Part shown: piece by piece, positions 40,658 to 41,721 of the stretch
How positions within the stretch are numbered: the first letter of the stretch is position 1
Layout: the number at the start of each line of letters is the position of its first letter
Assembly: GCF_004364155.1 (NCBI RefSeq)
Contig: NZ_SOAZ01000005.1
Span: 1-64,000, forward strand
Direction: 5' to 3'
Source of the DNA: Fonticella tunisiensis
GTDB taxonomy: Bacteria > Bacillota > Clostridia > Clostridiales > Caloramatoraceae
Length of the DNA: 64,000 nt
Program-made: the position numbers and the translations under genes
Notes under the pieces: generated by a model
The model's database searches: none
What the model was told of the DNA's origin: nothing
Seen by the model: the letters and a program-made list of their open reading frames with translations, nothing else

Positions 40658-41086
40658 TTAAATACCAAGTTCGGACATTTTTTCAGCAATTTCATCGAAA
40701 TCGATATTTTGTTCATTGTATTCAGTCCACTTTTCTTTACTCCAAAGTTCAATTCTTGTTGAAACGCCTATACTTACTATTTCCTTCGTGATACCGGCAT
40801 ATTCAATTAGATTTTGAGGGATTAAAGCTCTGCCTTGCTTGTCTATTTCTATCTCAGCAGCACCCGAAAAAAAGAATCTCACAAAGGCTCTTGCATCCCT
40901 GTTGGTAAGTGGAAGCGCCTTCAGTTTTTCCTCAAGCTTTTTCCATTCATCCATAGGATAGACATAGAGGCATCCATCAAGTCCCTTTGTAATAACAAAT
41001 TTATTTCCCAGCCCTTCCCGAAACTTGGCTGGAATGATAATTCTGTTTTTGGAATCCAGTGCATGCTGATATTCACCTATAAACAT
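40658..41086 (-). CDS. mraZ: Transcriptional regulator MraZ
   Basis: First gene of the dcw cluster; a ring-forming DNA-binding protein with two SpoVT-AbrB-type domains. The 142 residues contain [24 protein letters not shown] (first domain, segments 1-24) and a second copy beginning [14 protein letters not shown]. In several bacteria MraZ represses its own operon through closely spaced GTG-containing repeats, and such repeats lie directly upstream here. Confidence 0.97.
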
Positions 41087-41094
41087 CCATATCC

Positions 41095-41131
41095 CTCACA
41101 AATCACTCCACTTTACTCCACTTTTCACCAC
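41095..41131 (-). promoter_or_regulatory. Putative MraZ operator upstream of mraZ
   Basis: On the minus strand the hexamer GTGGNG occurs three times at an exact 10-bp period (GTGGTG at 41131-41126, GTGGAG at 41121-41116 and 41111-41106), followed by a degenerate TGTGAG at 41100-41095. The array ends 9 bp before the mraZ ATG. Same-face short repeats next to mraZ are the known form of MraZ operators. Confidence 0.7.
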
Positions 41132-41298
41132 ATTTTATATAATTCTATATAAAAATAAAAAATCCTCCTTTAAAAATAAAAATAGCACGTATTTCTAACA
41201 AAGATATTAGATATACGCGCTGCTTAAAACACAGTCTGGCTTCAAATCCCATTAATATAACTTGTCCTGCTGGTTTTGGATTTAAAAGGCTCTACGAT

Positions 41299-41331
41299 AA
41301 AAAATAGGGACGGCTTTTCCTGACCATCCCT
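41299..41331 (-). terminator. Terminator after the Spo0E-like gene
   Basis: AGGGACGG (41306-41313) pairs with CCATCCCT (41324-41331, one G-U pair), and on the minus strand it is followed by TATTTTTTATCG. It lies 29 bp after the stop of the 49-residue gene, supporting that gene being transcribed alone. Confidence 0.75.
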
Positions 41332-41359
41332 ACGTATCGTAAATTCTATTATATCGTTT

Positions 41360-41509
41360 TTACATATTTCGTTTATACTCTTTGTTGTAATACTCAACTA
41401 TCAGCTCGTCAAGCTCCTGGCTAATCCTAAGGATCATTTCGCGGTCATTATGTGTTAAAAATTCATATAACAGACCCCTTAACATTTCAACCTTATCTAA
41501 CAGCAACAT
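41360..41509 (-). CDS. Spo0E-like aspartyl-phosphate phosphatase (49 residues)
   Basis: A short gene that is easy to miss. It encodes two helices with the family signature SQELDELIVEY (residues 30-40), matching the SxELDxLI(x)Y pattern of Spo0E/YnzD/YisI phosphatases, which remove phosphate from Spo0A and block sporulation. Acidic Asp34 and Glu35 are in the expected place. The ATG at 41509 has GGGTGGGTGAT just upstream. It has its own promoter (41558-41586) and terminator. It lies upstream of mraZ in the same orientation. Family membership is strong from the motif; the substrate is inferred. Confidence 0.85.
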   Translation of the reverse strand: MLLLDKVEMLRGLLYEFLTHNDREMILRISQELDELIVEYYNKEYKRNM

Positions 41510-41533
41510 AATATCACCCACCCGATAAAAATT

Positions 41534-41549
41534 GTGGTGAAAAGTGGGT
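41534..41549 (+). promoter_or_regulatory. MraZ-box-like pair at the spo0E-like promoter
   Basis: GTGGTG at 41534-41539 and GTGGGT at 41544-41549 have the same 10-bp period as the mraZ operator. The 14-mer GTGGTGAAAAGTGG (41534-41547) is identical to one in that operator (minus strand 41131-41118). It lies just downstream of the predicted -10 element of the spo0E-like gene, where a bound protein could block transcription. Confidence 0.5.
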
Positions 41550-41557
41550 ATAACATT

Positions 41558-41586
41558 ATATTACAACATATGTTATAAACTGTCAA
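41558..41586 (-). promoter_or_regulatory. Promoter of the spo0E-like gene
   Basis: On the minus strand a consensus TTGACA (41586-41581) and TAATAT (41563-41558) are separated by 17 bp. A near-perfect palindrome TTATAACATATGTTGTAA lies in the spacer and -10 region (about 41561-41578), which could be an operator. Confidence 0.6.
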
Positions 41587-41628
41587 TAATTATAAATATA
41601 TGTCTATGCTTCTAAAATTATGTTAATT

Positions 41629-41637
41629 ATCGACAAA
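41629..41637 (-). promoter_or_regulatory. Spo0A-box-like site 1
   Basis: The minus strand reads TTTGTCGAT, 8 of 9 to the B. subtilis 0A box TTTGTCRAA. It is about 43 bp upstream of the -35 element of the spo0E-like gene. Confidence 0.45.
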
Positions 41638-41712
41638 GAAAAACAATGCTTGATATCAACTTCTATTTCATTTATCTACACAAAAATTCTGTATTGTTAA
41701 ATATATCATAAT

Positions 41713-41721
41713 ATTGTCGAA
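41713..41721 (+). promoter_or_regulatory. Spo0A-box-like site 2
   Basis: ATTGTCGAA is 8 of 9 to the 0A box TTTGTCRAA and contains the intact core TGTCGAA. It is inverted relative to site 1 and 75 bp from it. Confidence 0.45.

Follow-up and report, generated by a model that had tools for sequence, protein, structure and literature searches.

MraZ, the regulator of the division and cell-wall cluster, is nearly universal in bacteria, and to our knowledge few of its targets are known outside its own operon. The locus described here raises the question of whether a sporulation gene belongs among them. Upstream of mraZ in Fonticella tunisiensis lies a small spo0E-like gene, and a preliminary description of the 64,000-nucleotide stretch that contains both genes (the window) had drawn attention to a 14-bp word shared by the mraZ operator array and the region just downstream of the -10 element of the spo0E-like gene. 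Two 8-of-9 matches to the Spo0A box farther upstream led it to propose joint control of that gene by MraZ and Spo0A. It had overlooked that the spo0E copy is inverted, that the outer box is complementary to the Shine-Dalgarno sequence and that mraZ has a sigma-H-type promoter.

The 49-aa open reading frame matches the SpoOE-like family PF09388 at 33.6 bits in a Pfam search with a cut-off of 23, and residues S30, L33 and D34 of the SxxLD motif are invariant or nearly so across the mraZ-linked Spo0E set. By family match and motif, the product qualifies as a Spo0E family member and a putative Spo0A~P phosphatase. The gene for its presumed substrate, spo0A, is present in 17 of 17 genomes tested and lies 61 kb away on the same contig in F. 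tunisiensis. The TTGACA of the spo0E promoter occupies a nearly constant position in all 12 spo0E leaders compared, and an intrinsic terminator stands between spo0E and mraZ, which are therefore probably transcribed separately (Table 1). A second spo0E-like gene (G000:C5:102443-102586, + strand; locus L151), outside the window and 61 kb from mraZ, converges on spo0A (102852-103634, - strand); its upstream region shows neither a MraZ-type site nor a leader hairpin.

Table 1. Features of the spo0E-mraZ region in window coordinates.
Feature	Coordinates	Strand	Basis or remark
mraZ, 142 aa, division/cell-wall cluster regulator	40658..41086	-	Pfam PF02381; NCBIfam TIGR00242, 175 bits
mraZ operator, three boxes of 10-bp period (GTGGTGAAAA GTGGAGTAAA GTGGAGTGAT)	41102..41131	-	
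Sigma-H-type promoter of mraZ, AGGATTT-N14-GAAT	41142..41166	-	Constant-spacing pattern across clostridial mraZ promoters
Intrinsic terminator 3' of the spo0E-like gene	41304..41333	-	
spo0E-like gene, 49 aa	41360..41509	-	Pfam PF09388; ATG at 41509; motif region RISQELDELIVEYY
Shine-Dalgarno region GGGTGGGTGAT	41513..41523	-	GTGGGT at 41521-41516 pairs with 41549-41544
Two-box MraZ-type site, GTGGTGAAAA-GTGG	41534..41547	+	Exact match to mraZ operator boxes 1-2; mRNA strand reads CCACTTTTCACCAC
Predicted hairpin 5' arm ACCCAC, overlapping the outer MraZ box	41544..41549	-	Folds; co-variation with its own Shine-Dalgarno sequence
Sigma-A-type promoter of the spo0E-like gene, TTGACA-17-TAATAT	41558..41586	-	Consensus scan

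The word GTGGTGAAAAGTGG has two exact copies in the window, at 41118-41131 (-) and 41534-41547 (+), where shuffling predicts 0.00, and these are the only two in the whole 3.1-Mb genome (genome-wide site counts were made by pattern searches). The first of them makes up boxes 1-2 of the mraZ operator. The preliminary description was right about both copies. At spo0E, the word lies between the -10 element and the start codon and begins about 10 nt past the -10. It runs against the direction of transcription and so is inverted with respect to the mraZ copy, and no divergent promoter that would place it in a mraZ-like orientation was recognised by eye in this leader or in related ones. A profile of 20 positions was built from 199 consecutive box pairs of 101 clostridial mraZ operators, with a consensus of about AAGTGGTKTAAAGTGGWG and a 10-bp period. 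Box pairs of this period occur in 101 of 101 clostridial mraZ loci, which average two consecutive pairs, i.e., about three boxes. On this profile, the spo0E site ranks third in the window at 14.7 bits, after two mraZ pairs (30.6 and 27.0) and ahead of the next match at 8.0. The deviation of its outer flank from the MraZ consensus, apparently an accommodation to a leader hairpin, puts it below the 5th percentile of mraZ pairs (20.8 bits).

Rules for MraZ boxes were taken from papers citing the primary E. coli and Mollicutes site studies. GTG-core direct repeats with a 10-bp period are present at spo0E (GTGGTGAAAA-GTGG), as they are in 8 of 10 leaders of the family, and they cover the transcription start just past the -10, as MraZ operators do. 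PMC7761207 describes this placement for the MraZ repeats of Burkholderia and E. coli. The end of the -10 element is separated from the first core by 9-13 nt at spo0E across the family and by 8-13 nt, with a mode of 10, at mraZ; these matching distances indicate that the two sites share a position relative to the promoter, with the orientation reversed. Box number differs, with only two at spo0E and three or more at mraZ, a number that is usual and not proven necessary. Hence, the spo0E site is classed as an operator variant and not as a standard operator. Mycoplasma gallisepticum MraZ binds a two-repeat site, (GTGTTAN5)2, in vitro about as strongly as its own site (PMC5282649), and by analogy two boxes may be enough for MraZ. 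Against an operator at spo0E, that two-repeat site showed no MraZ effect in vivo (PMC5282649).

The family of F. tunisiensis includes Caloramator and Fervidicella (mraZ 85-89% identical). A spo0E gene is linked to mraZ in 10 of the 16 family genomes with a mraZ locus (directly upstream in G000, G001, G003, G006, G008, G010, G011, G013, G015 and G016) and in two sister-family genomes. Scanning 600 bp upstream of each mraZ array with the box-pair profile placed an inverted pair at the spo0E leader in 8 of these 10 family genomes, with scores of 26.0, 21.1 (four genomes of one genus), 21.0, 14.7 (F. tunisiensis) and 12.2 bits. The same scan gave nothing above 0 bits in six family genomes without linked spo0E (pair in 0/6). 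The MraZ-type site is therefore kept upstream of the same gene in related genera and missing where the mraZ-linked gene is missing. None of 433,526 background positions reached 10 bits, and at each of the 8 positive loci none of 400 shuffles reached the observed score; a chance origin of the pair is excluded. As four of the 8 positive genomes represent one genus, the independent lineages with the pair number about four.

The site is also nearly unique. In 17 family genomes, the strict pattern GTGGTNNAAAGTGG matches only mraZ, spo0E and one site inside the V/A-type ATPase gene of F. tunisiensis. Some 35 spo0E-like loci unlinked to mraZ lack the site, and no close inverted pair of strict matches was seen outside the Caloramator family among 291 class-wide genomes. 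Two one-mismatch matches considered as other MraZ targets in the F. tunisiensis genome (C1:134020 and C23:1965; by eye, the hosts are a MazF/NdoA-like ORF and a V/A-type ATPase subunit) were rejected, being inside coding sequence and unconserved. Nine pair-like matches in the distant genome G293 were likewise set aside: six are apparent 23S rRNA copies, two lie in ORFs and one resembles a multi-box array. Conservation, position and near-uniqueness together suggest that the element is a two-box MraZ operator over the transcription start that represses spo0E, a reading to which we assign a probability of roughly 0.6.

Since the 14 bp match the local mraZ operator exactly in several genomes, the spo0E site could also be a functionless remnant left by an old inverted duplication of that operator. 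The 14 bp are 88% identical pairwise among seven representatives, yet the flanks are unrelated and saturated (37-47%), and the word persists over genera whose mraZ-linked Spo0E proteins share 31-51% identity. Moreover, the two copies differ from each other in G011 and G016, so they have not been kept alike by recent copying. A remnant is very improbable on these grounds. Sequence further upstream differs between genera, which indicates that the element travels with spo0E. In a further scenario, one MraZ ring would bridge the two inverted sites around spo0E, and the resulting DNA loop would silence both promoters. Published descriptions of MraZ as an octameric ring (PMC7761207, PMC5282649) speak for this, and every site-positive genome has paired inverted sites; the spacings of 289-297, about 316 and 416 bp share no common helical phase, and we give looping very little credence.

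The gene order itself extends beyond the site. Spo0E-like ORFs also lie directly upstream of mraZ in two more distant loci, L129 (about -426 to -225 from mraZ) and L141 (-374 to -194), both in MAGs outside the order, and their leaders carry no box. Hence, the spo0E-mraZ adjacency may be older than the box. No spo0E-like ORF was found upstream of mraZ in the Clostridiaceae loci examined. In Caloramator australicus RC3 (G010; L039 / L066), the mraZ-linked spo0E is apparently frameshifted near its start, with homology resuming in another frame, which reflects either an error in the sequence or a recent loss; the leader and its box pair remain intact.

On the mRNA strand, the outer box reads as CCAC plus a flank complementary to the Shine-Dalgarno sequence. 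Arm and ribosome site change together between genera, from ACCCAC/GTGGGT in the window to ATCACCAC/GTGGTGAT in Caloramator and AACCTCC/GGAGGGGTT in a third genus. Pairing of the outer arm with its own Shine-Dalgarno sequence gives -9.8, -11.0 and -12.5 kcal/mol in the three genera, against -3 to -9 with swapped partners, and over five representatives 4 of 120 permutations are as good as the own pairing. The 5' arm thus co-varies with the ribosome site as in a sequestering hairpin, with Fervidicella (G003) as the exception. This pattern is modest evidence that points to selection at the RNA level. Predicted folds place all or part of the ribosome site in paired structure in 11 of 12 leaders, and the leader RNA probably hides its own ribosome site and so damps spo0E translation.

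Such pairing might be the sole function of the element. CACC-rich leader copies would then base-pair with the Shine-Dalgarno sequence to keep spo0E translation low, with release possibly by heat or a trans-acting factor, and the likeness to an operator would be a by-product, since an inverted GTGGTG box is automatically anti-Shine-Dalgarno. The paired ribosome sites and the co-variation agree with this, as do the sister family, which keeps the pairing and not the 10-bp spacing, and the fixed distance of 36-38 nt from the outer core to the start codon. An RNA element alone does not account for a conserved inner box within the loop of the hairpin, for the TTT found between the cores across the family, for the 10-bp period and the match to the mraZ array, or for the location beside mraZ. 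Fold energies do not exceed those of shuffles in several leaders, including that of F. tunisiensis; z ranges from -3.1 to +0.1 over the leaders and is -0.5 in F. tunisiensis, or +0.95 in another fold, z being a weak measure for short leaders. Fervidicella has the best box pair of all (26 bits) and no outer hairpin. Genera g1 and g2 share the same inner box, TTCACCACAA, and the g2 Shine-Dalgarno sequence no longer pairs with it (-3.4 kcal/mol). Because the inner box is constant where pairing is impossible, the MraZ operator is favoured over a hairpin alone, which we regard as rather unlikely.

Variants of the site also count against an operator alone. G013 has a 1-base insertion between the cores and keeps the hairpin; the sister family, with core distances of 9 and 8 bp, has retained the Shine-Dalgarno pairing. 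Caloramator fervidus (G006, L043) keeps the mraZ-linked spo0E and a GGTGGTG ribosome site, whereas its box pair and its pairing arm are gone, which makes it a natural null variant. Alongside these shifts and losses, the MraZ operator reading must accommodate a box number of two, an inverted orientation and one of the weaker sites in F. tunisiensis itself. A composite element fits best, as Fervidicella and the constant inner box oppose RNA-only function, and G013 and the sister family oppose DNA-only function.

The Spo0A half of the preliminary proposal fared differently from the MraZ half, which is supported by conservation of the site upstream of the same gene. Joint control would have phosphorylated Spo0A bound upstream of the spo0E promoter at the two 8-of-9 matches, ATTGTCGAA at 41713-41721 (+) and TTTGTCGAT at 41629-41637 (-), and both matches are indeed present. 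They occur at chance frequency: the window holds 18 such matches where 15.4 +/- 4.1 are expected, and the 7-mer TGTCGAA occurs 3 times against 3.1 expected. None of the other eleven orthologous leaders has an equivalent pair, and the recurrent TGACAAA matches in several of them are the -35 TTGACA. Being neither beyond chance nor conserved, the Spo0A boxes at spo0E were dropped, and joint control by both regulators is highly unlikely.

The mraZ promoter offers another connection to sporulation. By a strict pattern, 66 of the 101 clostridial mraZ loci (L035-L144 included) carry AGGAWW and GAAT at constant spacing immediately before the box array. We take this to be a sigma-H promoter on the basis of the B. 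subtilis consensus; such a promoter would tie the division and cell-wall cluster to a sporulation sigma factor. In the mechanism that we propose, MraZ from the neighbouring gene would bind the two GTG cores 10 bp apart and block sigma-A transcription of spo0E, much as it represses its own operon. Since Spo0E proteins take phosphate off Spo0A~P, a rise in MraZ would lower Spo0E and leave more of Spo0A active. Given the sigma-H-type promoter, the start of sporulation, with sigma-H followed by mraZ and the division and cell-wall cluster, would lift the brake on Spo0A, while MraZ would limit its own operon. At the RNA level, the outer box would form the 5' arm of the hairpin over the ribosome-binding site, so that spo0E would probably be damped at translation as well. 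The site, its conservation, geometry and near-uniqueness, and the co-variation of the hairpin are observed here, and we infer MraZ binding, repression and the effect on Spo0A.

Published work provides a setting for this scheme. Null mutants of spo0E in C. difficile form more spores (PMC11115286), C. beijerinckii mraZ is reported to be strongly transcribed at the spore-cortex stage (PMC6362236), and the division and cell-wall cluster of sporulating Firmicutes encodes sporulation-specific synthases (PMC10693644). Together with the sigma-H-type mraZ promoter, these observations make it plausible that MraZ repression of spo0E is a feed-forward step into sporulation. The full proposal is tentative: one element would act at two levels, through transcriptional repression by MraZ and an RNA that hides its ribosome site, and a division-cluster repressor itself under sigma-H would directly free Spo0A, in a loop peculiar to this lineage that would couple the timing of spore commitment to the state of the division genes.

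The type of site is known; its target, its inversion and its overlap with an RNA hairpin are new to us. MraZ and Spo0E are not mentioned together in the literature searched, which is weak evidence as most subscription journals lay outside its scope, and the MraZ passages of PMC6362236 and PMC10693644 contain no MraZ-Spo0E link. The site has been retained across four genera of Clostridia while the gene changed by half, which suggests that division control is wired directly to the sporulation decision. If true, a MraZ site on a Spo0A-phosphatase gene would be a compact and testable link from the division cycle to that decision in Clostridia, and the natural variants (intact, shifted and lost) are ready-made comparisons.

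Several known systems share parts of this arrangement. Like the Spo0E phosphatases of Bacillus and C. difficile (PMC11115286), the product belongs to PF09388, carries the SxxLD motif and would act as a brake on Spo0A; no MraZ link was found for those proteins in the literature searched. The mraZ operators of E. coli, Mollicutes, Burkholderia and Clostridia have the same GTG-core direct repeats of 10-bp period past the -10 and over the start, and the spo0E site adjoins mraZ. It differs from them in having two boxes in place of three or more, in its inversion and in its position before a sporulation phosphatase gene outside the cluster operon. The HsdC site (GTGTTAN5)2 similarly comprises two GTG repeats about one helical turn apart that overlap a promoter, with an 11-bp period and another regulator in vivo (PMC5282649). 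As in leader hairpins that sequester the Shine-Dalgarno sequence, a 5' arm complementary to the ribosome site co-varies with it between genera; unlike in those hairpins, the arm of the spo0E leader doubles as part of an apparent protein operator.
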